A DNA stretch of 24,764 nt, taken from positions 1 to 24,764 of IMG/VR virus record IMGVR_UViG_3300034066_001097; one strand, given 5' to 3'. A program made the translations under genes and the position numbers. This stretch comes from a virus. Of the stretch, positions 1,636-24,267 are shown piece by piece; the first letter of the stretch is position 1; every line of letters starts with the position of its first letter. The notes beneath the pieces are model-generated. The model saw only the letters and a program-made list of their open reading frames with translations. It was not told the origin of the DNA and did not search any database.

Positions 1636-1669
1636 ACCCCGGCTGCCGTGTGGCATGTCCGGGGTTTTT
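1636..1669 (+). terminator. Rho-independent terminator-like hairpin after terL
   Basis: A 7-bp stem ACCCCGG (1636-1642) pairs with CCGGGGT (1659-1665). A smaller inner helix GCC/GGC (1645-1647 with 1652-1654) lies inside it. A run of five T residues (1665-1669) follows, then CTTG. It sits between terL and the gpW-like gene, and its 3' edge is the start of a leader motif repeated at 4326 and 12781. Confidence 0.7.
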
Positions 1670-1692
1670 CTTGTCCTGACCCCGTTGTTTAG
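1670..1692 (+). promoter_or_regulatory. CTTGTCC leader element, copy 1
   Basis: The sequence CTTGTCC lies 5 nt after the hairpin arm ending at 1664 and exactly 23 nt (first C to A of ATG) before the ATGG start at 1693. The same layout recurs at 4326 and 12781. Copies 1 and 3 share the 10-mer CTTGTCCTGA. Whether it acts in transcription, RNA processing or translation initiation cannot be decided from the sequence. Confidence 0.45.
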
Positions 1693-1959
1693 ATGGCTCC
1701 CGATCAACGGTTACTCCTGCAGGTGTTTTTGACGCGCGACGTGGCCGAACTGCGGGCGATCATTGCAAGCAAGTTCGACCTGGTGACCGCGGGCAAGTCC
1801 ACGCTTGTTTCCAGTTCTATCGACGGCGCCGCTTTCCAGTTTAATGTGGGCGGCACGTTAAGTCCGCTGGACGTCATCATGCTGGCGCAGCAGGCGCTTA
1901 ATTACAAAGCGGCGGGCATCAACGGACCAGTGCGCAGGACGCAGGCGTATTTCATATGA
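1693..1959 (+). CDS. gpW-like head-to-tail joining protein
   Basis: This is a small 88-aa protein between the large terminase and the portal, exactly where lambda encodes gpW, which closes the filled head and provides the tail docking surface. It shows the gpW pattern by eye: an N-terminal helix, a TAGK turn, a short beta hairpin (residues ~40-52), a second helix, and a basic C-terminal tail with a GPVRR segment before an aromatic end. It is about 20 residues longer than lambda gpW. No SD precedes the ATG; the CTTGTCC leader does. It overlaps the portal gene by ATGA. The assignment rests on position and fold-like pattern rather than strong identity. Confidence 0.7.
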   Translation: MAPDQRLLLQVFLTRDVAELRAIIASKFDLVTAGKSTLVSSSIDGAAFQFNVGGTLSPLDVIMLAQQALNYKAAGINGPVRRTQAYFI

Positions 1960-3455
1960 GCCTACTCGACAGGATCAAAACTTTCATGGGGGTAGGCACG
2001 CCAAAGGTGGGCGCCAATTACGCAGCCTACCGCAGGCAACGCCTAGTAGAAGGCGGGGTGTGGGGCGAACCCTACTGGCGCAACCACACCCAAAGCATCA
2101 GCCGCGAACTGACCGTCGGCGAGTGGCGCACGGTCAACAGTGCGGCGCGCAAACTCTATTGGAACACGGGCGTTGTGAACGCCGCGATCGACCAGAAATC
2201 CATGCTGACTGTCGGGATGGCAATGCGCCCCATCTTCACCGGCGCGGATCGCGAGTGGGGCAAGCAGGCCGAGGCGGTGCTGCTCGACTGGATGCAAATT
2301 GCATACCTCGACGGCAAAAGCTGGTGGGAAGGGCTCCGGCTTGAGTCCGTGGCGATCGACCGGGAGGGCGACCTGCTCACGATCCTGACCACGACCGCCA
2401 ACGGCTACCCGCAACTCCAGCAAGTGCCCTGGCATCAAATCGGAAGCCGTGGAGACGATGGTGTTTTGACCGAGGGCCGGTATCGGGGGCTGAAAATTTA
2501 CAACGGTGTCATCCTTAGCAAAACCAACCGCGCCGTGGCTTACCGCGTGCTCGGCGAAGCGCAGGACGGCAGCGAAGATCGGGACGTGCCGGTGCAGTCG
2601 GCGATGCTGACGATGGATCCGCGCGAGGTGGACCAGGTGCGCGGCATCAGCGCGTTCGCTCCCGCGATCCGGGATCTCATTTCTTTCAAAGACCTCGGCG
2701 ACGACATCCAAGCAGCGTCCCGCATGGCTGCGAAAATTGGCCTACTCGTTACCAACCAGCAGGGCATGGCCGACGCATCAGACGCGTACAACGCGCTGAC
2801 CGACGTGACGCCGCCCGGGTGCGGCTCGCAACTGCGGCTCACGCCGATGGCAGGCGGGCGCATTGAGTACCTCACGGCCAACGCTGGAGAGTCCATTCAG
2901 CAACTGGACGCCAAAATCCCAACGGAAGCTCAGGACCGGCTACAGGAACGGCTTATCCGCAACGCGCTGCTGGCCGCTCAATGGCCGCCGGAGTTCGGGT
3001 GGGACATGAGCCGACTGGGGGGCGCAAGTGCCCGGATCATTCTTGAGCAAGTCAACCGCGTGACATCCGAGCGACACGCCTACCTGTCGGCATTTTGCAA
3101 GCGCCGGTGCGCCTTTGCCGTGGCTCGCTTCGTGGAGTTGGGCATCCTCCCGCCCTACACTGGACCCGACGCTAACCGCGGTGGCGCCTACCAGTTCCGT
3201 TTTACCGAACCCGCGAGACTCACCGCGGATTCCGGCTACGCCAACCGCGACGCCATTGACGCCTACCGCGCTGGGATGCGGAGCATGACCGACATCCTCG
3301 CCAGCGGATCCAAAACGCTCGAGGAGCACCTTGACGAAGTGGAACGCGAGGAACTCGAGATCAAAAAACGCGTGGACCGCTCAGGGCTGACTCGCGACGT
3401 TTTCGGGCTTCTGACCCCCAACGGCAACCCAGCCACAACCGCACCCACCGAATGA
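1956..3455 (+). CDS. Phage portal protein, lambda gpB family
   Basis: This 499-aa protein forms the dodecameric portal at one head vertex, through which DNA enters and to which the neck attaches. Length and position (after the gpW-like gene, before the head protease) match lambda-type portals. The N-terminal segment around residues 60-90 (NSAARKLYWN, then NAAIDQK) is the conserved entry region of the family, and a Gln/Arg-rich wing region follows. The C-terminal tail (residues ~450-499) is charged and then Pro/Thr-rich. It starts inside the gpW-like stop (ATGA) and its end overlaps the protease gene in the same way, so the three are translationally coupled. No truncation is seen. Confidence 0.92.
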   Translation: MSLLDRIKTFMGVGTPKVGANYAAYRRQRLVEGGVWGEPYWRNHTQSISRELTVGEWRTVNSAARKLYWNTGVVNAAIDQKSMLTVGMAMRPIFTGADREWGKQAEAVLLDWMQIAYLDGKSWWEGLRLESVAIDREGDLLTILTTTANGYPQLQQVPWHQIGSRGDDGVLTEGRYRGLKIYNGVILSKTNRAVAYRVLGEAQDGSEDRDVPVQSAMLTMDPREVDQVRGISAFAPAIRDLISFKDLGDDIQAASRMAAKIGLLVTNQQGMADASDAYNALTDVTPPGCGSQLRLTPMAGGRIEYLTANAGESIQQLDAKIPTEAQDRLQERLIRNALLAAQWPPEFGWDMSRLGGASARIILEQVNRVTSERHAYLSAFCKRRCAFAVARFVELGILPPYTGPDANRGGAYQFRFTEPARLTADSGYANRDAIDAYRAGMRSMTDILASGSKTLEEHLDEVEREELEIKKRVDRSGLTRDVFGLLTPNGNPATTAPTE

Positions 3456-4267
3456 AGTTCCAACGCGTTATCGAACAAGTTTTTTACCGCCCTTGGCTCA
3501 TCACGCCCGGCGGCTACGCAGCGGTTCGCAAACTGGTGGAGGGCCGCGTGCTGCGCGCCAACGGCGAAGGGTACGAAATGCTGGACGGCATGACCTCGAA
3601 GCGCGAGGAGATGGAGATCGACGGGCAGGGCATCGCGCACATTTCCATTGAGGGAACGCTGGCAAAAGGGATCTCGCCGATCGAAGCGTGCTGCGGGGCG
3701 CATGACTACGAGTGGATCACGGAGGATCTCGAGGACGCCATCGAGGCCAACGTGCGCGGGATCATGCTCGAGATTAACTCGCCGGGGGGCAACTGCACCG
3801 GCTGCTCAGAAGTCGTCGACATGATTCAAGGGCTCACCGTGCCGATCGTGGCCTACAGCGACGACACCGCTTGCTCTGCTGCGTACAACATTGCCGTCAG
3901 CTGCGACAAGGTCATTGGCTCTGTGGGCTCAACTTGGGGCAGCATCGGCACGATTATCCCCTGGCTGGATCAGTCGGCAGCCTACGAGGCCGAAGGGCTG
4001 CGGTGGGATCCCATTACGTCGGGACCGCTCAAAGGCGCAGGCATGGGACCGTCACTGACACCGGCGCAGCGCGCGAGCCTGCAGCAGCTGGTGGACGACA
4101 GCTTCGCGCAGTTCCGCGACAACGTCCTTCGCAACCGGCGCGTTGCTGACGAATACATGACCGGCGCCGCTTATCTCGCGCCGCGAGCGAGGATGGGCAA
4201 CCTCATCGACGCAGTGGGGACAGAAGAGCTTGCATATTCTGAACTTTTGCGTATGGTGGGCGCGTAG
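3452..4267 (+). CDS. S49-family head maturation protease (gpC-like)
   Basis: This 271-aa SppA/ClpP-fold serine protease is expected to process head proteins during prohead maturation. The oxyanion strand EINSPGG lies near residues 107-113. The candidate nucleophile is Ser142 in ACSAAY, and the candidate catalytic lysine is Lys194 in SGPLKGAG. The 52-residue Ser-Lys spacing is the one known for bacterial SppA. It follows the portal with an ATGA overlap. Unlike lambda gpC there is no long in-frame scaffold extension: the gene ends at 4267, a strong hairpin follows, and the next gene supplies a scaffold-like protein separately. Confidence 0.9.
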   Translation: MKFQRVIEQVFYRPWLITPGGYAAVRKLVEGRVLRANGEGYEMLDGMTSKREEMEIDGQGIAHISIEGTLAKGISPIEACCGAHDYEWITEDLEDAIEANVRGIMLEINSPGGNCTGCSEVVDMIQGLTVPIVAYSDDTACSAAYNIAVSCDKVIGSVGSTWGSIGTIIPWLDQSAAYEAEGLRWDPITSGPLKGAGMGPSLTPAQRASLQQLVDDSFAQFRDNVLRNRRVADEYMTGAAYLAPRARMGNLIDAVGTEELAYSELLRMVGA

Positions 4268-4291
4268 TTGTTCATTTGGTTTGTTGTTTCC

Positions 4292-4325
4292 ACCCCGCCG
4301 GGCTGTCTCTCCCGGCGGGGTTTTT
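4292..4325 (+). terminator. Strong rho-independent terminator hairpin
   Basis: This is a perfect inverted repeat: CCCCGCCGGG (4293-4302) pairs with CCCGGCGGGG (4311-4320), extended by A4292:T4321, with an 8-nt loop and a TTTTT tract. It lies 25 nt after the protease stop. A TTG-initiated frame could read through it (from 4268), but the translated hairpin gives nonsense-like sequence, so it is treated as non-coding. Confidence 0.85.
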
Positions 4326-4348
4326 CTTGTCCGAACGCTCAGGGGTAT
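4326..4348 (+). promoter_or_regulatory. CTTGTCC leader element, copy 2
   Basis: CTTGTCC begins 5 nt after the terminator arm ends at 4320, and lies 23 nt before the ATGG at 4349, the same geometry as copies at 1670 and 12781. The last bases before the start, GGGTATATGG, match copy 3 (GGGTACATGG) in 9 of 10 positions. The G-run is only 3 nt from the ATG, too close for a normal SD. Confidence 0.45.
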
Positions 4349-4759
4349 ATGGAGTCTACTCCGGCAACCCTTACCGACGCGCTGGCAGCGTTGTCCGCCG
4401 CACAGGCTGACCTCTCGGCGCTTAACGCACTTACCGCCGAGCACTCGGCGCTGGTGGCTCAATTTGACGCACTCAAGGCCCGCAGCGCGGAATTGTCCGC
4501 CGCCCTTGAGCTTGCCAACGCAAACAACCGCGACCTCGCCGCCGCTGTCGACGCCGTAAAGGCTGCCGAGGCTGACGCATCTGCGAAGGCAAACGCAATC
4601 GTCGCCAGTCTAGGCGTGCAGCCCGTGGCAATTCAGCCGGAAGCGGCGACCGCGCCTAAGTCGAAAGACGAATTGTGGGCGCACTACCAGACTTTGGGCT
4701 TCGTCGAGCGCAATGCGTTCTACGCGGCGAACAAAGACAGAATGAAGCTCAACTCCTAA
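4349..4759 (+). CDS. Scaffold-like coiled-coil protein upstream of the capsid gene
   Basis: The ATG at 4349 is chosen because an upstream TTG at 4268 would translate the terminator. The 136-aa product is Ala/Leu/Asp-rich with heptad-like spacing over residues ~5-90, predicting a long coiled coil. A Pro/Ala linker follows, then a compact charged tail (PKSKDELWAHY ... RNAFYAANK). It lies directly upstream of the major capsid gene, where lambda has its scaffold Nu3 and decoration protein D. Scaffolding is the best guess from position and coiled-coil character; a decoration role is less likely because the protein is mostly helical. The gene has its own leader element. Confidence 0.65.
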   Translation: MESTPATLTDALAALSAAQADLSALNALTAEHSALVAQFDALKARSAELSAALELANANNRDLAAAVDAVKAAEADASAKANAIVASLGVQPVAIQPEAATAPKSKDELWAHYQTLGFVERNAFYAANKDRMKLNS

Positions 4760-4778
4760 CCTCTACTGACTCAATCAT

Positions 4779-5660
4779 ATGGCACTCAACGGTGTTTTTC
4801 TTGCTCAGATCGCGCAGCAATCGCTGCCGTTCCTCACCAACGCTTTCGCTCCCCTGCGTGGCGTTACCACTGACTTTTCTACGGACGTTGCGTCCGCTGG
4901 GCAGTCTGTGACGACTCGGTTTGCTACGGTTCCTTCCGTGGTGGACATCGCCAGCGTCGGTTACACTCCCGCCGACGGCGACACAACCGCTCGCACCATC
5001 ACGCTGGATCAGCACCAGGGCGTGACGCTTGGGTTCACCGACATCGACGTTCTCCAGTCGTCCATCAACTTTGAACGCCTTTTCCTCGCGCCTATGGTGC
5101 AGGCTCTGGGCGCCAAGGTGTTCGGCGATCTCTGGAATTTGGTGACCGCTGCGAACTTTGCGCAGACTCCGCTTTCCTCGAGCGCAGCCAATTTTGACCG
5201 ATCTGACGTCATCGACCTGGCGCAGCAGCTGACCAGCTCCGCTAAAGCTCCGAAGTTTGGCCGCGCAATGATCCTCAACCCTGCCTATTACGGCGCGGTT
5301 TTGAAGACCTTCATCAGCGCTGAAATCCCGACCATCACGGAGTTCAAGGCCAACAACACGGTGCCCCGCGTGTCCGGTTTTGAAGTTTACGAGTCCGACC
5401 TCTGCGACGTTAATGGCGAAGCGCTGGCCGGGTTTGCGATGCACTCCAGCGCGCTCATCATGGCCGCCCGCCGTGTTAACCCGGAAGCGGCGTTGCAAGA
5501 TTCGATTGAGATCGCCGAAGTGGTGGTGCCCGAGCTTGGGCTGCCGGTGACCTTCCGCCGTTACTACGACCGCGCGCTGGGCAAAACCTGCATCAACGTG
5601 TCGATCATCTACGGCGTTGCCAAGGGCACCAACATGGGCGTCCGCATCGTCACTCCCTAA
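4779..5660 (+). CDS. Major capsid protein (HK97-fold, inferred)
   Basis: This 293-aa protein sits at the major capsid position of the head module, after portal, protease and scaffold and before the neck genes, and is flanked by a strong terminator, as expected for a highly expressed gene. Features seen by eye that fit small HK97-fold coat proteins: an N-terminal helix, a beta-rich section (residues ~25-90) with a TTRTITLDQHQ-type strand, and a long central spine-like helix (residues ~95-125). No N-terminal Pro/Lys cleavage delta domain is obvious, so the neighbouring protease more likely acts on scaffold or portal. The start has no SD. Confidence 0.82.
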   Translation: MALNGVFLAQIAQQSLPFLTNAFAPLRGVTTDFSTDVASAGQSVTTRFATVPSVVDIASVGYTPADGDTTARTITLDQHQGVTLGFTDIDVLQSSINFERLFLAPMVQALGAKVFGDLWNLVTAANFAQTPLSSSAANFDRSDVIDLAQQLTSSAKAPKFGRAMILNPAYYGAVLKTFISAEIPTITEFKANNTVPRVSGFEVYESDLCDVNGEALAGFAMHSSALIMAARRVNPEAALQDSIEIAEVVVPELGLPVTFRRYYDRALGKTCINVSIIYGVAKGTNMGVRIVTP

Positions 5661-5677
5661 CGACTGACCCTCCAAAG

Positions 5678-5714
5678 AGCCGGGGCTCCCTACACCGGGG
5701 GGCTCCGGCTTTTC
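5678..5714 (+). terminator. Terminator after the major capsid gene
   Basis: A 13-bp hairpin pairs 5678-5690 (AGCCGGGGCTCCC) with 5698-5710 (GGGGGCTCCGGCT), with two G-U pairs and a 7-nt loop, followed by TTTTC. It lies 17 nt after the capsid stop. Partial termination here would favour capsid mRNA over the neck and tail genes. It lacks the CTTGTCC motif found after the other two terminators. Confidence 0.8.
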
Positions 5715-5729
5715 ACCGAATATCCCAAA

Positions 5730-5951
5730 ATGAAAATCTCTCTCGTCCTTGAGGACGTTGGCGCAGGCCCGCAAATTATTTTTTCCACCGGTTCGCCCGA
5801 CGAGGCGCGCCGTTTTTACAAGGCGCACAACGGAGCAGGTCGGATCTACCTAATTTGCAACCCGACCCCCGAAGGAGTGAAGCTCAACAAGCTGCCGGTG
5901 GAGTTGCCAAAGCCTGTGTCTCGTCGCAAGGCTGAACCGGCGCTGATCTAA
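5730..5951 (+). CDS. Small neck-region protein of unknown function
   Basis: This 73-aa protein begins 20 nt after the capsid terminator and ends in a TAATG overlap with the FII-like gene. It has a short beta-rich N-terminus (MKISLVLEDV), a helix containing PDEARRFYKAH, another strand, and a Pro/Lys/Arg tail. The position matches lambda gpFI, but no sequence similarity is evident. It could be a minor head or neck component. I do not recognise the family. Confidence 0.75.
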   Translation: MKISLVLEDVGAGPQIIFSTGSPDEARRFYKAHNGAGRIYLICNPTPEGVKLNKLPVELPKPVSRRKAEPALI

Positions 5952-6253
5952 TGAGCGAATTCCTCGCCATCACTGCCACCGCAATGGCCGACGCAATCGG
6001 CTATATGCAGGCGGACACGGTTGTTTATCAAGGCGCAACCGTGTTTGCAGTGGCCAGCGAGAAGGAATCGCAGACGCTGGCCATCGGTGGCTTTGAGTCG
6101 CACTTTACAGGCGCGGTCCGACTTGAAAAAGCCGGGTTCCCCACGCCGGTGAAGGGCACGAAGCTGACGCTCAACGGCAGGGAGCTGCGCATCGGTGATA
6201 TTGCCGAGGATCCTATTTCGTGGACGTTGTACCTGGAGGATCCGAGCCGATGA
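5951..6253 (+). CDS. FII-like head-tail attachment protein
   Basis: This 100-aa protein has a helical N-terminus followed by a beta barrel-like region. Its end (residues ~75-97) alternates Gly-Thr-Lys-Leu-Thr-Leu, a charged turn, Leu-Arg-Ile-Gly-Asp-Ile, then Trp-Thr-Leu-Tyr-Leu, resembling the closing strands of lambda gpFII. Position between capsid and tail terminator agrees with a connector that joins the completed head to the tail. It is translationally coupled to both neighbours (TAATG upstream, ATGA downstream). The assignment is by position and strand pattern. Confidence 0.65.
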   Translation: MSEFLAITATAMADAIGYMQADTVVYQGATVFAVASEKESQTLAIGGFESHFTGAVRLEKAGFPTPVKGTKLTLNGRELRIGDIAEDPISWTLYLEDPSR

Positions 6254-6630
6254 TCGACCTTCTCACATGCGAAGTAATCCGCGACGAGATTGCGCCCGAC
6301 TTCACCGGCACCTACATAGGGCTCCCGCATGACGGGGAGTCTATCACGATGCCGTGCATTTTGCTGGACCTTCGCGGGGATGCGCTGGTGGGTGGACCGC
6401 TGCAACGTGGTGCGTTGACCGTGGCAGTAATGAGCCAGGCTGACGACTCCACAGTCGCGGAGCACATTGTGCTCGTTCAGGACGTGACAGACGCGATCAA
6501 GGGCGTCACCGGCAGCGGTTCCGCGGTGCAGGTTTACGGCGTGGTCGCGACCTCATCGGAGGCGCAAAACACGGAACGGCATTGGATCACGAATTTGCAG
6601 TTCACCTTGGGCTACGGCCCGCAACCTTAA
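6250..6630 (+). CDS. Probable tail terminator / tail completion protein
   Basis: The ATG at 6250 overlaps the previous stop (ATGA) and is preferred over an upstream in-frame alternative at 6220. It is one of the few starts with an SD-like GGAGG upstream (6236-6240, 10 nt away). The 126-aa product is close in length to lambda gpU (131 aa). It has an N-terminal helix, a central strand TVAVMSQ, a helix containing AEHIVLVQDVTDAI, and a C-terminal strand region. It lies between the FII-like gene and the tail-tube-like pair, where gpZ and gpU sit in lambda. The role is inferred from order. Confidence 0.6.
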   Translation: MIDLLTCEVIRDEIAPDFTGTYIGLPHDGESITMPCILLDLRGDALVGGPLQRGALTVAVMSQADDSTVAEHIVLVQDVTDAIKGVTGSGSAVQVYGVVATSSEAQNTERHWITNLQFTLGYGPQP

Positions 6631-6635
6631 ATCCC

Positions 6636-6938
6636 ATGGCCACATTTGGAGTCACCTCAACATTCGGACTGACCGCGCCGACCGGCAGCTTTCTGCAAAG
6701 CTCCGAGCGCACGCAGGAAGTCGAAACCGCAACCATCAAAGGCGCAACGGGGCGCGTGGTGCTCGCGCAGGCGAAGCCGCGCAGCAAAACCACGGTGACC
6801 ATTCGCACCAAAGGGATTGCCACGCTGTCCACCGTTTCCGTTGGTGGCTTTTCGGCGCTGACCGTTACGTCCACCAAATACAGCGAAACCAACGACGATT
6901 TTCCGACATCGGAAATCACCGGAACCCTCTTCGAATAA
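6636..6938 (+). CDS. Tail-tube-like protein A (paralogue of the next gene)
   Basis: This 100-aa, beta-rich protein begins MATFGVT. The next gene begins MATFGIT, and the C-terminal halves can be laid over each other (TKYSETNDDF against TKITETQTNEDW). An upstream in-frame start at 6582 would extend the frame into the tail terminator gene and is rejected. Its place just before the chaperone and tape measure genes is that of the major tail protein. It could be the tail tube subunit or a tube-associated partner. The ATG follows a CC-rich leader without SD. Confidence 0.6.
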   Translation: MATFGVTSTFGLTAPTGSFLQSSERTQEVETATIKGATGRVVLAQAKPRSKTTVTIRTKGIATLSTVSVGGFSALTVTSTKYSETNDDFPTSEITGTLFE

Positions 6939-6944
6939 ACCGCC

Positions 6945-7253
6945 ATGGCAACTTTCGGCATCACCAAAATCACCGGCACGCTTATTGAGTCCGTGGATAC
7001 CACGCTCACCGGCGAAACAAAGGAATTGATCAACGCTGACGGCACGCATTCCGAGGCTACAATCGTGGACAGTCAGTTTTCGTTTTCGGTTAAAGGCAAG
7101 GGCGACTTGCCTGCAATTACTCTCGGTGGCGCAGCTGGCGAGCCTGACGGCGTCACCGGCAAAGTGATCATCACGAAAATCACCGAGACGCAGACCAACG
7201 AAGACTGGCAGGGCTTCTCTTACGACGGCGTCGCCTACACCGCCGCCAGTTAA
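6945..7253 (+). CDS. Tail-tube-like protein B (paralogue of the preceding gene)
   Basis: This 102-aa, beta-rich protein begins 7 nt after the stop of its paralogue, again with a GCC-ATGG start. It is Thr/Gly-rich with alternating strands (SFSVKGKGDLP, then VTGKVIITKITET), like small tail tube proteins, and has no cysteine. A tandem pair suggests duplication followed by specialisation, for example tube and tail-tip/tube-initiator subunits, or a two-component tube. Which of the two is the tube cannot be decided from sequence alone. Confidence 0.62.
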   Translation: MATFGITKITGTLIESVDTTLTGETKELINADGTHSEATIVDSQFSFSVKGKGDLPAITLGGAAGEPDGVTGKVIITKITETQTNEDWQGFSYDGVAYTAAS

Positions 7254-7274
7254 AGCGCAACGGCGCATCCGATT

Positions 7275-7727
7275 ATGTCACATCTAAAACCCGGAACGCG
7301 AATCGACTTTATTCGCGACAACCTGCCGCCGCTTAAGTCACCCAACACCGACTTGATCGGTGCGTGGCTTGCGGTGGGCGGGCAACTGCTAGACGAGGAG
7401 AACTTTCACGACACGGTCGAAGAAACATCCGACGGCGTGAAGCGACAAGTCGTTTGGAGCATCAAGGGCGACGTGCGCGCTCGCATCGGCGATGAGGACG
7501 TCTCGTTTGACGAGTTCCGGCGCCGCTGGTTGTCTGACGAGTGGCGCGCAGCAAACCCGTTGCACTGGATCACGATTCAACGGGCGCAACGAGACTACAC
7601 GGTGCAACTCAAGACCTGGCTGCAGACTCAAAAACCGTGCGCGCTAATCCGCAAAGGCAACCGGCAGGTGGTGATCCACCCTGACCTACCGGAGGAAAAG
7701 AAAGCCAAACTGCTCGCCGCGCTATGA
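7275..7727 (+). CDS. Unknown tail-module protein
   Basis: This 150-aa protein sits between the tube-like pair and the G-like chaperone. It is charged, Trp-rich and mostly helical towards the end (residues ~75-150, DEFRRRWLSDEWR, then PEEKKAKLLAAL), with no membrane segment or cysteine cluster. It overlaps the chaperone gene by ATGA, which suggests a linked role in tail assembly. I do not recognise the family. Confidence 0.75.
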   Translation: MSHLKPGTRIDFIRDNLPPLKSPNTDLIGAWLAVGGQLLDEENFHDTVEETSDGVKRQVVWSIKGDVRARIGDEDVSFDEFRRRWLSDEWRAANPLHWITIQRAQRDYTVQLKTWLQTQKPCALIRKGNRQVVIHPDLPEEKKAKLLAAL

Positions 7728-8101
7728 GTTTCCTTTCTGGACCGATTGAAATTGAGGGCATCAAGCTGCGTCCGTTTTCGCTACGGTCGCGGCTCAACTG
7801 CATGGCTTTGGGGCTCACGTTGTTCACGGACACCGAAGGCGCGGAACTGACGCCGCTACAGGTTGAGGAGCAGATTTTGGCGCTGGCGTGGGAGCGGTCG
7901 CAGCCGGTGCAGACCGTGCGCAAGGCCATCGACGCGGGCACGGCGTGGGACGCAATCCATGATTTTGCCGATTCGTTGCCGCTGGCCGCGTTGCCGCAGT
8001 TGGTGGCAGAGATCAACCGCGTCGCTTCCGAAATCAAGGCGCAGGCGGTGGAGGTGGTGCCACGTCCCGGCACCGAGGACAAGGACGCGCCGGGAAACTA
8101 G
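7724..8101 (+). CDS. Tail assembly chaperone, G-type product
   Basis: This 125-aa protein lies immediately upstream of a -1 reading frame and close to the tape measure gene, the conserved arrangement of lambda gpG. The product is mostly helical, with an N-terminal strand pair (IEIEGIKLRPFSL). G-type chaperones bind the tape measure protein during tail assembly and are absent from the finished tail. The gene ends CCG GGA AAC TAG, so the last two sense codons are the core of a canonical slippery heptamer. The product without frameshift should be the more abundant one, by analogy with lambda. Confidence 0.82.
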   Translation: MSFLSGPIEIEGIKLRPFSLRSRLNCMALGLTLFTDTEGAELTPLQVEEQILALAWERSQPVQTVRKAIDAGTAWDAIHDFADSLPLAALPQLVAEINRVASEIKAQAVEVVPRPGTEDKDAPGN

Positions 8102-8142
8102 TGGGGCCAACATGGGAAGCCGGACTCATTCTCACGTTGGCC
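8092..8142 (+). promoter_or_regulatory. Programmed -1 ribosomal frameshift signal
   Basis: The slippery heptamer G-GGA-AAC (8092-8098) is in the correct X-XXY-YYZ register of the G-type frame and directly precedes its TAG stop. After a 6-nt spacer (8099-8104) a hairpin begins: GGCCAAC (8105-8111) pairs perfectly with GTTGGCC (8136-8142). Inside it, after a 2x2 internal loop, 8114-8118 pairs with 8129-8133 (one G-U). Heptamer, spacer length and hairpin together match known -1 frameshift signals. Lambda uses the closely related GGGAAAG at the same gene. Confidence 0.9.
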
Positions 8143-8322
8143 GACAAGACCGGGTGGACGGAGGACGCCATTCTGGACCTGCCGATGACTCGAGCGCTGG
8201 CGTATTATCACGCGGCGCTCTGGGCGGCCGGTGCGTGGACAGTGCGCCAAGGGCCGGCACCAACGGAGCAGCTTTCTCGCCTCATGGCGTTGTGCTCGAA
8301 TGATCTCGCTCAAACTGAATGA
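8098..8322 (+). CDS. T-type frameshift extension (GT-like chaperone C-terminus)
   Basis: A -1 shift at 8092-8098 reads C8098 twice and continues CTA GTG GGG... to 8322. This joins 74 residues to the 125-residue G-type protein for a 199-aa product. The extension is helical with several Trp residues and an Ala/Tyr-rich helix (ALAYYHAALWAAGAW). In lambda the T domain of gpGT recruits tail tube protein to the tape measure-chaperone complex. There is no ATG or SD at the head of this frame. A GTG overlaps the TAG stop (TAGTG), so re-initiation is the alternative, but the intact frameshift signal makes fusion more likely. Confidence 0.85.
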   Translation, partial: LVGPTWEAGLILTLADKTGWTEDAILDLPMTRALAYYHAALWAAGAWTVRQGPAPTEQLSRLMALCSNDLAQTE

Positions 8323-9103
8323 AGCACAAGCCGAATGGGGAGCGGCAACACTGGCGCGCATCGTCGAAGGCGTTGCGACCGGCGGGCTCGCGCTGCCCGA
8401 ACTCATGGCCGTGTCGTTTGCCGAGTATTTGATGACAGTGCAGGGCATCACACCGCCAGCAAAAGGCGCTAGGGTGATCGGCGCGGTGGACTTGAGCCGA
8501 GGCAAAGCAGCAATAAACGTGGACCTCGGGCGCGCGTTTGTAGTGGCGTCCAAAGGCATCGCTGGCAGCGTGGGGCTTGGCAGAGCCGAGCGGTTTGTGA
8601 GCCGCAAAGCCGCGCGGCAGTTGGCGCGCGTCACGACAAACGCACGGGCGCGACTACTTGGGCGCGCTGCGGTGGCGAAGGCAAAAAAGGAGATCCTGAG
8701 CGCAGCCGACAACGATCCGTTGTCCTGGTACGAGCGCCAACGCCGCAATGGGCGTTTCACTGGCCGCGTGAAAATGGAAATCGACACGACTGGGCTGGAA
8801 AACATCCGGCGATCCCTACACGCGCGCGTTGGCTACCTTGCCAGCGGCTGGAACGCAGCAGCGGCGCGGTTTAAGGTGCCGACCCCCAGCTGGGTGTCTA
8901 ACAAGGGTGGGCGCGGCAGCGTGGCCGTCACGCGGTCGTCGTCAAAACTGGACATCCGCGCCGCCAACCAGGTCACCTACGCAAACGACATTGCTGGGAT
9001 GCAGCGTCGAATCAACGCTGCGGGCGAGATCGTGGCGAAGCGCATGGAGCGCAAAGCGGCAGCCAAGGCCGAAAAGGCGATGCAGCAACAAATTGACACA
9101 TGA
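8300..9103 (+). CDS. Unknown protein between chaperone and tape measure
   Basis: The ATG at 8300 is chosen; in-frame codons upstream to 8231 would run deep into the chaperone extension. The 267-aa product still overlaps that extension by 23 nt and overlaps the tape measure gene by ATGA. It is Ala/Arg/Lys-rich and basic, with helices at both ends (the last ~30 residues are a strongly charged Ala/Lys/Glu helix) and a Gly-rich middle. No motif is recognised. It may be a minor tail or tape-measure-associated protein; the name rests on position only. Confidence 0.75.
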   Translation: MISLKLNEAQAEWGAATLARIVEGVATGGLALPELMAVSFAEYLMTVQGITPPAKGARVIGAVDLSRGKAAINVDLGRAFVVASKGIAGSVGLGRAERFVSRKAARQLARVTTNARARLLGRAAVAKAKKEILSAADNDPLSWYERQRRNGRFTGRVKMEIDTTGLENIRRSLHARVGYLASGWNAAAARFKVPTPSWVSNKGGRGSVAVTRSSSKLDIRAANQVTYANDIAGMQRRINAAGEIVAKRMERKAAAKAEKAMQQQIDT

Positions 9104-10773
9104 GCGCAACCGCACAACTAGCACTTGACGTTCGAGGATTTCTGGCCGGAGTGGACCTTGCCAAGCAGGGGCTCACATCGCTTCGCGGAGAGGCTGGCAA
9201 GGTTGACGAGGGCAACGGCATGGCGCGGCTACAGGTGGCCGCCGTGGCGTTGGCTGCGTCCGTGGCCGCGTTGGGTGCAGCAATTTACAAGGGCACCGTG
9301 GGCGCGGTTGAAATGGGCGCGCGGCTTGTGGACGTCAGTTACAAATCTGGACTGGCCGTTCAGCAGATTATGACCCTCGAGCGCAGCCTCGAGGAAGTGG
9401 GTGGAAAAGCTGAAGACGCCGCACCGGCGACCGACCGCTTTAATCAGTCGCTGCAACAGGCCGCCAACAACGCGGGACCGTTGGCGGGGATCATCCGCGA
9501 CGCAGGACTGTCCATGCAACAGCTTGCGGGGATGAGCGTGGCGCAGCGCATGGTTGCCGTGGGCGACGCGATCAGGGCCATTGCCAACCCGGCGCAACAA
9601 GCCGAGGCCGCGGTGGCTGCGTTTGGCGCGTCCGGCATCAAAATGCTTGCGGCACTGGATCCTAAAAACCTTGCTGGCGCAGCGGGCGCAATGGGTGCCC
9701 AAGCGCAGATCATGCAGGCAAACGCAGGCGTTTTTGCGCGGATCATGCAACTGATGGGCGCGCAAGGTTCGTCGCTTAACAGTTTGGCCGTCGCCGTCAA
9801 AGGCAAATTGCAAGGGCTCTTCACGGGCATCGCTGCGGGTGTCGCTCCAACCGTGCTAAAAATCATGGAAGCCAGCGCCGCAGGTGGCGCAAGCCTGGCG
9901 GCATCCATCCGGGCTTTCTCGCCAGCGCTGGAGCCGCTCGCGGGGCTGGTGGAGGCTTTGGTAAACATGGACCTTGCCGGAGTCGGTGCGCAGCTGGGCG
10001 CGGGGGCGGCTGCAATCGCTGAGGCGATAATGAACGGCGACGCGATCGAGTACATCCGCGCCGGGCTTGTTGTCGCTGGCACAGAATTCAAAGCGCTACT
10101 TTCTCGCGCCGCTGACGGGCTTTCTGAGGCGTTTGCAAGGTTCAAAGAATACATCAATCTGCCGGGCATCATTGAGCAGATGAAAGCCGGGCTCACGTCC
10201 GCCGGAACTGCGCTGATGGGCGTCATCCAGAAAGGACTGGCGTCGCTTTTGCAATCGCTGCGGAACTCATCGGACTTTCTCCAGAACGCTATCAAGCCGG
10301 AGACAGTGCTGGCGTTGGCAAACGCAGGCGCAAAGGCGAGCAAGGACGCGGCGAGCGCGCTGAGCGCTGCAATATCCAACGTGGGGGCGCAAATTACAGC
10401 GCCAAGTGGGCCAACCCAAAATGAGCAGGTGCAGTCTGACGAGGCGCGCCGCAAGATGGCCGAAATTGAGGCAAAGACCGCTGCAACCGTGGCCGCAACT
10501 GGAGCTGCGATGCGGGGGCGTTTTGCAACTCCTACGCCAGGGCAACAAGCGCTCACGCTGCCAGCGCAGACACAAGCCGCAGTGCAGCCGGTGGGCGGCA
10601 TCGTTTCAAGCATGGCAAAAATCGGCGGCGACATTTTGGGGCCACAAACAAGCGCGCTCGACATCCAACGCCAACAACTGCAGGCACAACAGCGCACCGC
10701 TGACAACACAGCAAAACTGGTGGCACAAATGAGCAAGCCGACCGGCGTCGCAACCTCTATCGTTTATCAATGA
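9100..10773 (+). CDS. Tail tape measure protein
   Basis: This 557-aa Ala/Gly/Gln-rich helical protein follows the chaperone region and is the longest tail-shaft gene. It contains a hydrophobic segment near residues 47-68 (VAAVALAASVAALGAAIY) and further hydrophobic helices near residues 260-320, as usual for tape measures, whose membrane-active segments help DNA pass the envelope. The C-terminal 130 residues are Gln/Ala-rich and charged. If the usual ~0.15 nm per residue applies, the tail would be about 80-85 nm, short for a siphovirus. It starts with an ATGA overlap and ends with one to the next gene. Confidence 0.88.
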   Translation: MSATAQLALDVRGFLAGVDLAKQGLTSLRGEAGKVDEGNGMARLQVAAVALAASVAALGAAIYKGTVGAVEMGARLVDVSYKSGLAVQQIMTLERSLEEVGGKAEDAAPATDRFNQSLQQAANNAGPLAGIIRDAGLSMQQLAGMSVAQRMVAVGDAIRAIANPAQQAEAAVAAFGASGIKMLAALDPKNLAGAAGAMGAQAQIMQANAGVFARIMQLMGAQGSSLNSLAVAVKGKLQGLFTGIAAGVAPTVLKIMEASAAGGASLAASIRAFSPALEPLAGLVEALVNMDLAGVGAQLGAGAAAIAEAIMNGDAIEYIRAGLVVAGTEFKALLSRAADGLSEAFARFKEYINLPGIIEQMKAGLTSAGTALMGVIQKGLASLLQSLRNSSDFLQNAIKPETVLALANAGAKASKDAASALSAAISNVGAQITAPSGPTQNEQVQSDEARRKMAEIEAKTAATVAATGAAMRGRFATPTPGQQALTLPAQTQAAVQPVGGIVSSMAKIGGDILGPQTSALDIQRQQLQAQQRTADNTAKLVAQMSKPTGVATSIVYQ

Positions 10774-11429
10774 GCACTCTAGTCCGTACCGAAACAGGGA
10801 GAGACAATCGCGGAAACAAGTTTCTCACCAACACCTACGAGAGCTTTACCCAGCCGACTCCAGACAACACCGCTTCCAATTGGACGCTATCGCAGGCGGA
10901 CGGGGTGTGGACATTGACGGAGACTTACACGGAAACTGTCCCAGATCCCGGCGGCGGTGGAGGCACTACGTTTCCGGACATTTGGAGCTTAGACATCTCC
11001 ACCGTGACCGATCCCATCGAGACATTCATTCTATTTCGCACCGGGATCAGCGCGCAGGAAATGGGGTATTGGACGCAATGGCGAGCGGGAAAAGAACCTG
11101 GAGCCGACACGTATCCGAGCGGTTTTCCGGCGAATTCTACGAACCCGTACGTGCAACAGCTTTACCTACGGTTCAACCGTGGCGAAACCGACTACCTGAC
11201 GCCGCGTATTGTGGTGAAACACCAGAAGGTTTACAGCGTGCCGCCTACGTTGACGGGCGTGGGGTACGCCACCGACACAATATCGGGCTGTCCGTTCAAC
11301 TTTGCATCCACGGTCAATTTTCTTTTTACTGGCGCAACATCCGTGACCGAGGGCAGTAATTTTCGTGTCACAATGGAATGGCTCACATCCCGACCAGGCA
11401 AGTGGGACTCTTACATCTACGGTCCGTAA
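10770..11429 (+). CDS. Tail-tip region protein, unknown, with Gly linker
   Basis: This 219-aa protein is the first gene after the tape measure, where distal-tail (Dit) proteins usually lie. It has a Thr/Asn-rich N-terminal domain (residues 1-58), a pure GGGGG linker (61-65), then an aromatic, beta-rich domain (FPDIWSLDIST ... GKWDSYIYGP). No Dit, Tal or gpJ signature is recognised. It overlaps the tape measure by ATGA and is followed one base later by the next gene. A structural role in the tail tip is inferred from order only. Confidence 0.75.
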   Translation: MSTLVRTETGRDNRGNKFLTNTYESFTQPTPDNTASNWTLSQADGVWTLTETYTETVPDPGGGGGTTFPDIWSLDISTVTDPIETFILFRTGISAQEMGYWTQWRAGKEPGADTYPSGFPANSTNPYVQQLYLRFNRGETDYLTPRIVVKHQKVYSVPPTLTGVGYATDTISGCPFNFASTVNFLFTGATSVTEGSNFRVTMEWLTSRPGKWDSYIYGP

Positions 11430-11430
11430 A

Positions 11431-11982
11431 ATGAACCTTCCAGACGTCCAACGTGGAATGGCGATCCTCGCCGACCACATCCAGCGCATCAACGCGGCAA
11501 TCCGACAAGCGCGGATCCGTCCTGGCGTCGGTTATCAAATAAGAGAGACATCGGGCGGCGTGTCGCTCCTAATTCGTCCGGGCACATCCGGCGGCGGCGG
11601 CGGCGGCACCGCTTGCCAATATTTCGAGGTCACCGACGCCAGCGTGGGCATCGACTTGAAGGTCCAGGTCGCTCAGAACCTAATTGCAGGCCGGTGGCCC
11701 GACGGCATGGGGCTCGACTTCCCGGCGTTCATTCTGGAGATCAGCGGGAACTCCTACATCTACGCAAAAATCACGTACAACACGACGACGCTGGAAATCC
11801 TGCCGGAGTCCACGGCCATCACAATTTTGCAGAGCGGCAACATTGAACCCAACACCGCAGATTCCGTTCACATCCTGCTTGCGACCGTGGTCACCGACGG
11901 CGACCCGCTGGCCATCACCGAAATCAGCAACGTGTGCACGCAGCCGGTGCCGAGTCCCTGCAACCTGGCGTGGACTGAATGA
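11431..11982 (+). CDS. Tail-tip region protein, unknown, helix-Gly linker-beta domain
   Basis: The start at 11431 is one base after the previous stop; an in-frame upstream extension to 11365 is rejected because it overlaps the neighbour. The 183-aa protein has an N-terminal helix (residues ~3-30, DVQRGMAILADHIQRINAAIRQ), a GGGGGG linker (54-59), and a C-terminal beta-sandwich-like domain with FILEISG and YIYAKITYN strands. This architecture recalls small tail fibre or adaptor proteins with a coiled-coil trimeriser. It ends with an ATGA overlap to the next gene. Confidence 0.75.
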   Translation: MNLPDVQRGMAILADHIQRINAAIRQARIRPGVGYQIRETSGGVSLLIRPGTSGGGGGGTACQYFEVTDASVGIDLKVQVAQNLIAGRWPDGMGLDFPAFILEISGNSYIYAKITYNTTTLEILPESTAITILQSGNIEPNTADSVHILLATVVTDGDPLAITEISNVCTQPVPSPCNLAWTE

Positions 11983-12572
11983 ACTGTTACGAGTGGCGAA
12001 AACATATCACCGGCAGCGTTTCGGTGGCTTTTAACTATCTGGAGACTGGACCCGGCTACACGCTTGCGGGATCCGGCACCATAACGCACGCGGCGCTTTA
12101 CACGGCGTGGACGCATCGCGAGCTGCAATGTATCGGCACGCCGCTGGGCGACGAACCCAACTGGATCCTCCGCGGCGACAACCTTTGCGAAGGGCGGGCA
12201 CAAATATTCGGCATTCTGACGCCGGAAAACACCATTTCCGTGACCTACACGCCAACCGTGGGGACTCCGAGCACTGAGCAATGGAGCATTTTTTGGCAGG
12301 TGCAGCCGGACGGGTACGACACCAGGACAAACCTTCTGCCGGTGTCGCCGTATCCGGACTGGGAAAACGACCCATACAGCCTGTCCTACAGAGCCGCAAT
12401 TGACGCGTCACCACCCGGCACTATGCTGGTGGGGATCGCTCCAACACCTCCAGACTCGGGGTTCCCTGCAGCAAACGCGGTGCCGATACGGTGGCTCAAA
12501 AACGGCGAAAACGGCACCAGCGACAACGGCTTTCTCACGGCATCCGTGAGCTGCATCTTTTCACTCGCATGA
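11979..12572 (+). CDS. Tail-tip region protein, unknown
   Basis: This 197-aa protein is beta-rich with many Pro, Gly and Tyr residues, and has scattered cysteines (residues 3, near 48, 68 and near the end). No known domain is recognised. It lies in the continuous tail-tip string with ATGA overlaps on both sides. The middle (residues ~85-135: ISVTYTPTVGTPS, then a Trp-rich turn and PYPDWENDP) could be an immunoglobulin-like or carbohydrate-binding fold, but this is only an impression. Confidence 0.72.
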   Translation: MNCYEWRKHITGSVSVAFNYLETGPGYTLAGSGTITHAALYTAWTHRELQCIGTPLGDEPNWILRGDNLCEGRAQIFGILTPENTISVTYTPTVGTPSTEQWSIFWQVQPDGYDTRTNLLPVSPYPDWENDPYSLSYRAAIDASPPGTMLVGIAPTPPDSGFPAANAVPIRWLKNGENGTSDNGFLTASVSCIFSLA

Positions 12573-12790
12573 TGATCCCTCGGTGGCTCGTTGACAAAAG
12601 GCTCTCAGTGTGCGCACAGTGTGAACAGGCGGCAACCTGCGTGGCGCGGTTCCAAATCCTTAAGGAAGCGCCACAGTGCCCGCTGGGACGGCTCGCAACG
12701 CGGGATGAGGAGGTGGCAGCCAGAGCGTGGCCCGAGGGCGCAGAACGGGCGTCCGGGTGCTGCGACTCGGCGCAGAATTACTTGTCCTGA
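12569..12790 (+). CDS. Small Cys-rich (zinc-ribbon-like) protein
   Basis: The start at 12569 (ATGATG) overlaps the previous stop by ATGA; an in-frame upstream extension to 12491 is rejected. The 73-aa product carries C15-x2-C18-x5-C24-x12-C37 followed by P-L-G, a plausible metal-binding knuckle, and an acidic Ala/Glu-rich tail ending in a CC pair. Such mini zinc proteins occur beside tail genes in some phages, but the function is unknown. Its 3' end encodes the third copy of the hairpin plus CTTGTCC element, so its last codons double as leader for the next gene. Confidence 0.7.
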   Translation: MMIPRWLVDKRLSVCAQCEQAATCVARFQILKEAPQCPLGRLATRDEEVAARAWPEGAERASGCCDSAQNYLS

Positions 12791-12803
12791 GGGCTTAGGG
12801 TAC
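12760..12803 (+). promoter_or_regulatory. Hairpin plus CTTGTCC leader element, copy 3
   Basis: A CTGCG/CGCAG hairpin (12760-12764 with 12771-12775, 6-nt loop) is followed by 5 nt (AATTA), then CTTGTCC at 12781-12787, then 16 nt, then ATGG at 12804. The spacing is identical to copies at 1636-1692 and 4292-4348, but here there is no T tract and the element lies inside the 3' end of a gene. It is therefore not simply a by-product of a terminator. Confidence 0.4.
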
Positions 12804-13124
12804 ATGGTCGCCGTCCAAACCAGCTCAACAATCCAGCGCGGGACCGACTGGGACTTTTCGTTCCAACTGCAGGAGGACGGACTTTGCAGCGCCTACACCG
12901 ACCTAACGAACTGGTTTGTGGGCGTGACGTTAAAAACGAGCGCAGGCGCATCGCTGACGACGCCGACCATCGTACGACCCGACGCGGAGACGGTGTCGCT
13001 GCGCCTGACTCAAACGGAGACAGCGGCTTTTTCGGCACAGTTTGGCGCACAGCTGACCGTCAACGTCCAGCGCCCTGACGGCTGGGACATCCGACTTATC
13101 GAGGCCCGCGTAACCATTTCCTAA
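12804..13124 (+). CDS. Small beta-rich tail protein upstream of fibres
   Basis: The ATG at 12804 follows leader element copy 3; the open frame extends upstream to 12591 but that part is a shadow of the Cys-rich gene. The 106-aa product starts with a polar N-terminus (QTSSTIQRGTDWDFSFQL) and has alternating strands over its whole length (NWFVGVTLKTS, AETVSLRLTQTET, WDIRLIEARVTIS). This resembles the small beta-sandwich adaptor domains found at the base of phage fibres. Position directly before the fibre genes supports an adaptor role. Confidence 0.68.
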   Translation: MVAVQTSSTIQRGTDWDFSFQLQEDGLCSAYTDLTNWFVGVTLKTSAGASLTTPTIVRPDAETVSLRLTQTETAAFSAQFGAQLTVNVQRPDGWDIRLIEARVTIS

Positions 13125-20953: not shown

Positions 20954-21157
20954 ATGAGCACATCACACTATAGTCGCCCGTATCGGGCAACACCGCCTCC
21001 GCCGAACACTCGCCGGTGGACTTCCGCAAAACTCGGCACCATCGGCGCGCTGCTGCTGGTGGACATGGCCGCGCTCCTTGGGAGCCAGGACATCGTGGAA
21101 TCGTTGTTCCTTGCCGCGCTCGTCGTAGTCAACTGCTGGGCACTCACACGGCAATGA
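20954..21157 (+). CDS. Small membrane protein, unknown
   Basis: This 67-aa product has a Pro/Arg-rich cytosol-like N-terminus (residues 1-25) and two hydrophobic stretches, ~27-42 (LGTIGALLLVDMAALLG) and ~49-64 (VESLFLAALVVVNCWAL). It begins after an A/C-rich leader and overlaps the zinc-site gene by ATGA. A membrane protein in the early region might modulate the host or exclude other phages, but that is speculation. Confidence 0.68.
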   Translation: MSTSHYSRPYRATPPPPNTRRWTSAKLGTIGALLLVDMAALLGSQDIVESLFLAALVVVNCWALTRQ

Positions 21158-21738
21158 GCTACACCATGAATGGCAAGCCGCTGTGGTGCCGCCCGGCACG
21201 CACGCGGGGAGGGAGCGAAGCGGTGCGGGACACCGACACCGACGAAGTCGCGGCGGAACAGCTGGGGATTCTGGCAGAGGCAGCGCAGCTGGTGGCCGAC
21301 GGGATCCGCGCCGGACTGGTTTATCGTCCCGCCGCGGTGGATGACCCCACAGGCAAACTTCGGATGGATCGGCCGAACAACGTTTGGAGCCGCTGCGACA
21401 CTTGCCACCAACAATTCCAGCGCGGCAAAAAGAGCGAGTTGACGACGTGTTTTTCCTGCCGCCTACCAGCGGCAACGTGCAAGGGTTGCGGTAAACAATT
21501 TCAGCCTCAACGCAGGAGCCAACTCCTGTGCGGCAAAGCCTGCGTTGGACTGGCGCTAACTGCAGCGGCAACCGAGCGCAACAAGGACCGCGCAACGGTC
21601 CCCTGCGTCATTTGCGGCGCACAGCATCTAATCCGTTTTGCAGGCGGAAAAATGGCAGTCACCTGCGGGCGGCAATGCGCGCAACAGCATGTGGCACAGA
21701 TCAACCGAGACAAAAAACAACAGAGACAAACCAAATGA
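21154..21738 (+). CDS. Triple zinc-site protein
   Basis: The ATG at 21154 overlaps the previous stop; the upstream in-frame codons to 21016 are a shadow of the membrane gene. The 194-aa product has a helical N-terminal third and then three Cys4 sites: C81-x2-C84/C99-x2-C102, C109-x2-C112/C126-x3-C130 and C151-x2-C154/C171-x3-C175. It ends in a very basic tail (RDKKQQRQTK). The sites look like zinc ribbon or treble-clef knuckles, suggesting DNA or RNA binding. Location directly upstream of the nuclease and clamp points to replication, recombination or transcription control. No named family is recognised. Confidence 0.78.
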   Translation: MSYTMNGKPLWCRPARTRGGSEAVRDTDTDEVAAEQLGILAEAAQLVADGIRAGLVYRPAAVDDPTGKLRMDRPNNVWSRCDTCHQQFQRGKKSELTTCFSCRLPAATCKGCGKQFQPQRRSQLLCGKACVGLALTAAATERNKDRATVPCVICGAQHLIRFAGGKMAVTCGRQCAQQHVAQINRDKKQQRQTK

Positions 21739-22727
21739 ACATTCGACATTCAGCACTTCCAAAGCTCGCGCTTTGCGGCCAATACGAGGGCGCGCCGGGC
21801 ACATCACCTGCGGCCGAGCGGGGAACTAAACTAGACGCGGCGTTCCGGCACGCCTGGACGACCGGCGAGTTTCCAGACTGGGATCTTCCAGAAGAGGACG
21901 CCGAGGCAGTGCGCTGGGCGATTAACCAGTGCATCAGCCTGGGCGGCGGCGCTGACGGGCTCACGACCGAGGAGGACAAATGCCGGATCCTGACCGGTGG
22001 CTTTGAGCACCGGGGCACCGCTGACGGCGTGGCGGTTCGCGGGCGCTGGCTTGTGGACCTCAAATCCGGCCAAATCTACGATTACCGAGCACAGATGGCA
22101 GCCTACGCTCTGGGACTGATGCAGCAGCACTTTGAGCAGGACTGGACAACGCACCTACTGTTTTGCGACCAGCGGCAAACTGTGGTGCACCGGTGGACCT
22201 ACGCGTCGGCCAGCGAGCTGGTGCGCAGCGTGCTCGCAAACGTGGGCACCGCGCCGGTCGAAAACGATTACTGCGGGTGGTGCAGCAAATCGCTGACCTG
22301 TCCCGCCCGTGTCGCGACCAAAGACAAGGCACTGGTGACCGTTGCCGGGCTTGCGCCAACCGTACAGGACGAGGGATTCCTTGCGCTGCTTAACGACCCA
22401 GACCGACTCGGGCAGTTTTTGGCAGCTTGCCAGACGCTCGACGATTTCAGAGACGCGGCAAAAGAGAAAGCACGCGGGCTTCTCGAGGCTGGCGTGAAAG
22501 TACCAGGATGGAGGCTCCAGAAGCCTCGTGTGACTGAGTTCGTTGACCCTGAGTACATCGCTCAGGCAGTCGAGTCAGGCAAGATCGGTGCAGCCAACGC
22601 CATCATGGCTGGTGGTGCTCTGAGTGCCAAAAAGGCTGAACAACTTTTCAGCGAAGCCGGCGCAGTCATGCCTGAAGGCATCGTGGCGCGCAAAATCGGG
22701 GCTCAACCTTTGGTACAAAGCAAATGA
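21735..22727 (+). CDS. PD-(D/E)XK nuclease with predicted Fe-S cluster (DUF2800/RecB-Cas4-like)
   Basis: The ATG at 21735 (ATGA overlap) is used; the frame extends upstream to 21528 only as a shadow. The 330-aa product shows the RecB-type nuclease core: E28 in AERGTKLD, D97 in GTADG, D108-x-K110 in LVDLKSG, and Q120-x3-Y124 in YRAQMAAYALGL. Four cysteines, C14 plus C180-x2-C183-x5-C189, match the 4Fe-4S arrangement of Cas4/AddB-type enzymes and of the phage DUF2800 group. A helical C-terminal region follows (residues ~195-330). It is probably a single-strand-directed or end-processing nuclease for phage recombination. It overlaps the clamp gene by ATGA. Confidence 0.8.
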   Translation: MNIRHSALPKLALCGQYEGAPGTSPAAERGTKLDAAFRHAWTTGEFPDWDLPEEDAEAVRWAINQCISLGGGADGLTTEEDKCRILTGGFEHRGTADGVAVRGRWLVDLKSGQIYDYRAQMAAYALGLMQQHFEQDWTTHLLFCDQRQTVVHRWTYASASELVRSVLANVGTAPVENDYCGWCSKSLTCPARVATKDKALVTVAGLAPTVQDEGFLALLNDPDRLGQFLAACQTLDDFRDAAKEKARGLLEAGVKVPGWRLQKPRVTEFVDPEYIAQAVESGKIGAANAIMAGGALSAKKAEQLFSEAGAVMPEGIVARKIGAQPLVQSK

Positions 22728-23815: not shown

Positions 23816-24267
23816 TGAGCACGCAAAACTACATCGCAATCGACCCAGGCGTGGGCGGCGGCATCGCCTACACCGACACTGACGGCAGTGTCCACGCATT
23901 GCCGATGCCAACAACATTGCATGACCTTGAGCATCAGTTGCGCATTTTATGCAGAGACATTGTCACCGTGTTCCTCGAAGAATTGCCAAAATTTGCTGGG
24001 AAGATGAGCGGCTCAAGCATGGCAACGATGTTTCGCAACTACGGGCGCATCGAAGGGATGCTTGCTGCTTACTGTGCCCGAATTGAGTATCTGCCGCCCA
24101 AGAAGTGGCAGCAGGCGCTCGGGCTCGGCGACAAGAAGACGCACGGGAACCGATGGAAGGCTCACCTTAAAGGCAGGGCACAAGCGCTTTATCCACAACT
24201 CACAGTGACGCTCAAGACCGCCGACGCACTGCTGATATTGGAGGCGGGAAAGAAAATGACGCGATGA
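23815..24267 (+). CDS. RuvC-like Holliday junction resolvase / endonuclease
   Basis: The ATG at 23815 overlaps the clamp stop (TAATG). The 150-aa RNase H-fold protein has D10 in IAIDPGVGGGIAY, Glu in VFLEELP (residues 55-56) and D137 in KTADALLIL, the ordered acidic residues of RuvC-type active sites. The length is near RuvC (about 170 aa). A basic stretch (KKTHGNRWKAHLKGR) lies before the last motif. It would cut branched DNA during replication or before packaging. It overlaps the next gene by ATGA. Confidence 0.85.
   Translation: MSTQNYIAIDPGVGGGIAYTDTDGSVHALPMPTTLHDLEHQLRILCRDIVTVFLEELPKFAGKMSGSSMATMFRNYGRIEGMLAAYCARIEYLPPKKWQQALGLGDKKTHGNRWKAHLKGRAQALYPQLTVTLKTADALLILEAGKKMTR

Follow-up and report, generated by a model that had tools for sequence, protein, structure and literature searches.

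The 24.8 kb stretch of viral DNA considered here (the window; 24,764 nt, positions 1 to 24,764 of IMG/VR record IMGVR_UViG_3300034066_001097) carries genes for a terminase, a portal protein, a head protease and the major capsid protein. Its portal protein has distant relatives in the marine Verrucomicrobia phage P8625 and in an Akkermansia phage, and the capsid protein is approximately 50 % identical to that of P8625. This analysis concerns the heptamer CTTGTCC (the box), which precedes three genes in the window, and its putative partner X, a predicted helix-turn-helix (HTH) protein of the same phage group.

The boxes begin at 1670, 4326 and 12781, in each case exactly 23 nt 5' of an ATGG start, as the original prediction had reported. 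All are on the + strand, as are the genes that follow them. Copy 1 (1670..1676) is followed, after 16 nt, by gene 1 (1693..1959), which encodes an 88 aa protein of no known family and heads a unit of gene 1, portal and protease. Copy 2 (4326..4332) lies 16 nt before gene 2 (4349..4759; 136 aa, no confident known family), directly 5' of the major capsid gene (4779–5660). Copy 3 (12781..12787) lies 16 nt before gene 3 (12804..13124; 106 aa, phrog_1084, unknown function), which heads the tail-fibre unit; this copy has no terminator and falls within the last coding bases of the small gene before it (stop codon TGA, 12788–12790). A second, T-R-N-A half of the element follows each box on the same strand: TAGA (1690..1693, 13 nt behind the box and overlapping the start codon) at copy 1, TATA (4346..4349, again 13 nt behind) at copy 2 and TACA (12801..12804) at copy 3, where many relatives have TATAAT or TGTAAT. 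The pattern CTTGTCC-N16-ATGG occurs three times on the forward strand of the window and never on the reverse strand, and a backward-read control pattern was not found. CTTGTCC alone is not enriched (five seen against 3.5 expected); the non-random feature of the word is its placement, not its frequency.

Intrinsic terminators precede two of the boxes, both on the + strand. Behind the terminase gene, the terminator at 1637..1669 has a CCCCGG/CCGGGG stem enclosing an inner hairpin, with a T tract at 1665–1669. Behind the head protease gene, that at 4292..4325 has a ACCCCGCCGGG/CCCGGCGGGGT stem and a T tract running to 4325. The T tract is kept at all of the unique sites in relatives (40/40 for copy 1 and 39/39 for copy 2). 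At these sites the copy 1 stem, which is bulged, has a median of six uninterrupted pairs, compared with four in shuffled sequences, and the copy 2 stem 11, compared with five. Both stems vary in their 3' arms, and at copy 2 there are pairs changed on both sides. The copy 1 stem was not recovered by RNAalifold from the short leaders aligned with MAFFT. A G+C-rich stem followed by a T tract, retained in relatives, is a property of copies 1 and 2 and not of copy 3, where there is no T tract and the stem is no better than in shuffles (median five against five; 25 sites).

At copies 1 and 2 the hairpin is an ordinary terminator serving the unit that precedes it, and at copy 3 it is a chance occurrence within coding sequence. 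The original prediction had placed a hairpin 5 nt before every box and treated hairpin, box and start codon as one composite leader. The hairpin, with its T tract and the 5 nt spacing, stands at the first two copies only; because no stem is conserved at copy 3, the hairpin was ruled out as part of the element, and the composite resolves into a terminator that belongs to the upstream unit and a box that belongs to the downstream one. Each of the first two boxes abuts a terminator, and from there 23 nt remain up to the start codon. The terminator of the terminase gene is itself more elaborate than a plain one: in the copy 1 hairpin (1637–1664), and in relatives, the inner hairpin is variable and has a GTGT/GAGT loop, and an unpaired TGT that is conserved comes next, ahead of CCGGG.

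Concerted change of the box and its match with protein X

A capsid search of IMG/VR yielded 80 loci. In most of the closer relatives CTTGTCC keeps its place before genes 1 and 2, and before gene 3 on contigs long enough to include it, and the bases between the box and the ATG vary. The spacing, which had been described as constant, is nearly so: the box-to-ATG distance is mostly 16 or 17 nt, with a range of 14–19 nt over the relatives. In the window and 14 relatives, the class-specific pattern box-N14–17-ATGG is found only at these late-gene starts, three times per genome (twice in each of two shorter records); the opposite strand has none. Enrichment of the motif in related phages, on which the original prediction had hung, is thus found, and all homologous starts examined in a given box class carry the box of that class. 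Restriction of a conserved word to the coding strand at the starts of late units is the behaviour expected of a late promoter. A possible fourth CTTGTCC occurs at position 16316 of relative G010 and 18044 of G014, at the 3' end of homologous methyltransferase-like genes and approximately 15 nt before a possible start codon; it is absent from the other relatives.

Other phages of the group carry other words, of one kind at all of the two or three sites read. Protein X, of approximately 112 aa and encoded upstream of the terminase genes, stood out in a comparison of near-complete genomes, and its putative recognition helix differs between the classes. In class A, the box is CTTGTCC and the helix GVS[RH]QA (18/18 contigs with a readable box); GTCC is invariant in this class while the surrounding bases vary. 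Class B (five contigs) has CTTGCTC at genes 1 and 2 and CTTGCCC at gene 3, with helix GVSHAA. CTTGTC[A/G] at all three sites accompanies GITQQA in class C (one contig), and a TTGTG-type word accompanies GVTQQT in class D (one contig). Class E (two contigs) has CTTATAA, GTTATAC and CTTATAA at the three sites, and helix GCSQPA. There are no exceptions among the 27 contigs in which the helix and at least one box could be read. Five further contigs, two with CTTGTCG/CTTGTCT and three with TTGTGAA-type words, fall outside this count, as X is not in the sequence available for them. For L210 and L214 the helix was read before the boxes; genes 1 and 2 then proved to have CTTGCTC, the word expected for class B.

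The words change in concert at unrelated places, and this points to a diffusible, phage-made factor. The same change makes it almost inconceivable that the boxes are functionless tails of terminators, kept by common descent. Boxes 1 and 2 do directly follow TTTTT, and CTTGTCC is no commoner in the window than expected; however, copy 3 has no terminator, and GTCC stays invariant in class A amid varying bases. The three-site pattern and the concerted switching already refute this explanation.

X belongs to no family in Pfam, PHROGs or NCBIfam, and its only known counterpart, a 96 % identical match in BFVD, is an uncharacterized protein. Among the universal non-virion families, X alone is divergent in G001 (class E) as well as in G004 (class B). 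One class E protein is identical to a class A X over residues 1–30 (30/30) and shares only 18 of 54 residues over 59–112, and among distant class A proteins the N-terminus diverges more and the helix is better kept. In a tree built without the helix, which has many open forks, the class B and class E/D branches fall among class A rows. A word and a factor that change together between phages are again what late promoters would be expected to show. With five classes, there are too few to solve a code relating helix residues to box positions.

Two other candidates for the factor were rejected. A zinc-ribbon protein differs little between G001 (class E) and G003 (class A), and it has diverged strongly among class A phages; the small terminase is up to 87 % identical between classes B and A, and occurs as two types within class A. 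It is improbable that the boxes are read by some other phage or host protein, with X merely sharing its history. Switches are few and recombination is common in these genomes, which would allow such an association, but class E X keeps the class A N-terminus and alters its DNA-binding end, the two variant genomes share no other divergent family among the universal non-virion ones, and L228 carries X and matching boxes on a single 8.3 kb contig. Slightly less probable still is the proposal that binding of X to the boxes serves packaging, replication, partition or some other non-transcriptional process. X adjoins the terminase genes, and three fixed sites per genome would suit such a role; against it, all of the sites are 14–19 nt from a late-gene start and on the coding strand, two lie directly behind terminators, and the small terminase is separate and does not track the boxes.

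Further features of these genomes were observed. A repeated hairpin, GTGACAGCCGGGAGAGACCGGC, and its variants, with paired G+C arms and a GAGA-type loop, occur once to four times immediately 5' of X (G001 32731–33100, G007 3940–4250, G013 6975–7120; single copies before X in most relatives). This might be an RNA or operator element of early genes, perhaps boxB/nut-like. An apparent 3' half of a tRNA gene lies just 5' of X in G001 (approx. 33100–33198) and G003 (approx. 34095–34192). The zinc-ribbon-like protein (21133–21738 in the window, and homologues) is universal and fast-diverging, with several CxxC motifs and a conserved MNG[KA]P N-terminus. The window also encodes a DNA polymerase sliding clamp (22724–23815) and a Holliday junction resolvase (23803–24267).

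Proposed promoter architecture and the likely RNA start

In a pooled logo anchored on the box, T-R-N-A appears 13 nt behind it, with an information content of 1.25 for the T and 1.52 for the A, and registers better with the box than with the ATG. A scan for sigma70-type consensus sequences found no promoter at the three sites. The two halves are 13 nt apart, compared with 16–18 nt between −35 and −10 elements of the sigma70 type, and the downstream half overlaps the ATG. Taken as a −10 element, T-R-N-A would place the RNA start, approximately 7 nt behind it, inside the gene. Codons 2–4 of gene 1 vary at third positions only, so gene 1 is translated from its ATG, and the classical −35/−10 reading fails. 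The RNA therefore most likely starts at the ATG or a few bases before it. Of the three functions suggested in the original prediction, a promoter for a phage or alternative sigma factor, with TANATG 13 nt behind TTGTCC, fits best, in so far as the downstream half is in register with the box; it is the classical −35/−10 arrangement that does not hold. No support was found for an RNA-processing site.

A translation element that does not rely on a Shine–Dalgarno (SD) sequence, also suggested originally, is a poor fit. SD sequences are lacking from most of the other gene families in these phages, whose leaders are 5–15 % G at all but one position from −8 to −1 and whose ATG is mostly followed by A. 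The box genes are the opposite: they are G-rich at −6 to −4 and nearly always begin ATGG. It is very improbable that the box is an RNA element aiding ribosomes to start without an SD sequence, or the site of an RNA-binding regulator. The near-constant distance from box to ATG and the lack of an SD sequence would favour such an element. However, most other families start without either an SD sequence or a box, from G-poor leaders; the box switches with a helix of DNA-binding type; and the downstream half is in register with the box, not the ATG.

Several late ATGs in related phages are preceded by TTGACA at a group-specific, near-constant distance: approximately 29–31 nt in P8625 (L171; positions 4637, 5412, 10736, 15558 and 22406), 28–29 nt in the L166 group, 13 nt in the L155 group and 14–15 nt in the L157 group. 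The 28–31 nt in P8625 and the L166 group corresponds to the canonical −35 distance for an RNA starting at the AUG, as would suit leaderless mRNAs made from promoters of the sigma70 type, and supports very short leaders. No X gene was detectable in P8625, and in the L157 group one ORF distantly resembles X (E 5e-6). The host group of the phages studied here is suggested by kinship with P8625 only; searches of reference genomes with the portal protein or X found no prophage relatives. Some Verrucomicrobia are reported to be SD-scarce (PMC10783764), in line with the non-SD starts of these phages.

Proposed role of X and comparison with known systems

The AlphaFold2 model of X (pLDDT 84) is all-helical with no strand, and has HTH helices at 85–92 and 96–111. 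Its structural matches are weak and tied (Foldseek E >1, Z ≤4.4): region 4 of the sigma factors SigC, SigD and Taq sigmaA, and KorA, ArdK and TrpR. There is no Pfam or NCBIfam match that would indicate sigma region 2 or region 4, and the C-terminal end is weakly region-4-like, tied with unrelated HTH domains. The model thus supports a DNA-binding HTH protein and gives no support to membership of the sigma family. Matches of the X profile to RecA in PDB derive from concatenated RecA chains and were taken as chance.

We consider it probable that CTTGTCC is the recognition site of X and marks three phage-specific late promoters. The sequences establish that the box occupies three sites, that it switches in concert and that it matches X, and recognition of the boxes by X is well supported; binding, activation, the start point and use of the host polymerase are what we infer from these. 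X would be expressed from its gene upstream of the terminase genes, bind the box and guide host RNA polymerase to initiate a fresh transcript at the ATG or within a few bases upstream of it. The host polymerase is proposed because no phage polymerase gene was seen: none was noticed in the gene lists, and a search for single-subunit phage RNA polymerases (PF00940) gave no match in 17 records, in which the control also matched nowhere. Each of the late units (gene 1–portal–protease, gene 2–capsid–tail, and gene 3 onwards) would then be expressed from a leaderless or near-leaderless mRNA. X would be a promoter-specificity factor or activator, similar in role to T4 MotA or the phiEco32-type sigma factors, with no family match.

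Several points weigh against this interpretation. Independent switches of box and helix number only approximately three to four, and classes C and D each rest on one phage in which X is known. X itself lies outside the window record; the window's own X is presumed to be of class A type (GVSRQAI), from contig L006/L224, which has an identical capsid protein. The sigma-like resemblance is weak, as described above, and the downstream half, taken as a −10 element, would start the RNA within the gene.

Recognition of the boxes by X would be explained equally well if X were a repressor and the boxes operators, with promoters elsewhere and the late units shut until late infection. A site 20 nt before a start codon is typical of operators, which favours this alternative, and the weak structural neighbours of X include the repressors KorA and TrpR. 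However, no other conserved promoter is seen in the approximately 23 nt between terminator and start, sequence further upstream is conserved only as the terminator stem, and there is no classical sigma70-like site there. Repression is therefore unlikely, though it deserves some weight. A more specific form of the promoter interpretation can be put forward tentatively: X may be a stand-alone sigma-region-4-like factor, and the box, 12–13 nt and T-R-N-ATGG a fused promoter and start codon. The mRNAs would then start at or near the AUG, and a class switch would occur through change in the DNA-binding end of X with rewriting of all three boxes.

If the promoter interpretation is correct, a late-gene control system would be named for a phage group known almost only from metagenomes, and a function assigned to an unnamed protein family. 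The promoter would be compact, with the start codon nearly part of it, in hosts that are probably SD-poor. The five classes of matched helices and DNA words would form a natural series for studying a DNA-recognition code.

The RinA/ArpU-type late regulators of Firmicutes phages are small and encoded next to the terminase genes, as is X. They differ in host group, and here there are several boxes per genome. With E values up to 1 allowed, X matched no RinA/ArpU model in Pfam, PHROGs or NCBIfam, libraries in which the presence of those models was unchecked. P8625 shares homologous capsid and portal genes with the phages studied here, and its TTGACA is near-constant before several late ATGs; it differs in its ordinary TTGACA-N17-TATTGG spacing and in the absence of a detectable X gene. 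In the collection of papers searched, none was found to describe P8625 late promoters or the present element.

The late sigma factors gp36 of phiEco32 and gp47 of 7-11 each serve a handful of late promoters specific to the phage, which lie at corresponding places in the genomes, and promoter word and factor diverge together; one promoter has a single element, with a start 6–8 bp downstream (PMC8948821). The co-change of word and factor and the small number of late promoters are similar here, and the proposed placement of the start is comparable to that of the single-element promoter. X, at approximately 112 aa, is too small for a complete sigma factor and would have at most a region-4-like end.

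In the middle promoters of T4, which rely on sigma appropriation by MotA and AsiA, a MotA box of TTGCTT type lies 12 ± 1 bp before a −10-like element and is used by a small phage protein with the host polymerase (PMC2988021). MotA has a double-wing fold, unlike the all-helical HTH model of X, and the −10-like half here overlaps the start codon, so that the RNA would start elsewhere. The spacing of box and downstream half nevertheless agrees with that of the MotA promoters, with T-R-N-A as a putative −10 element.

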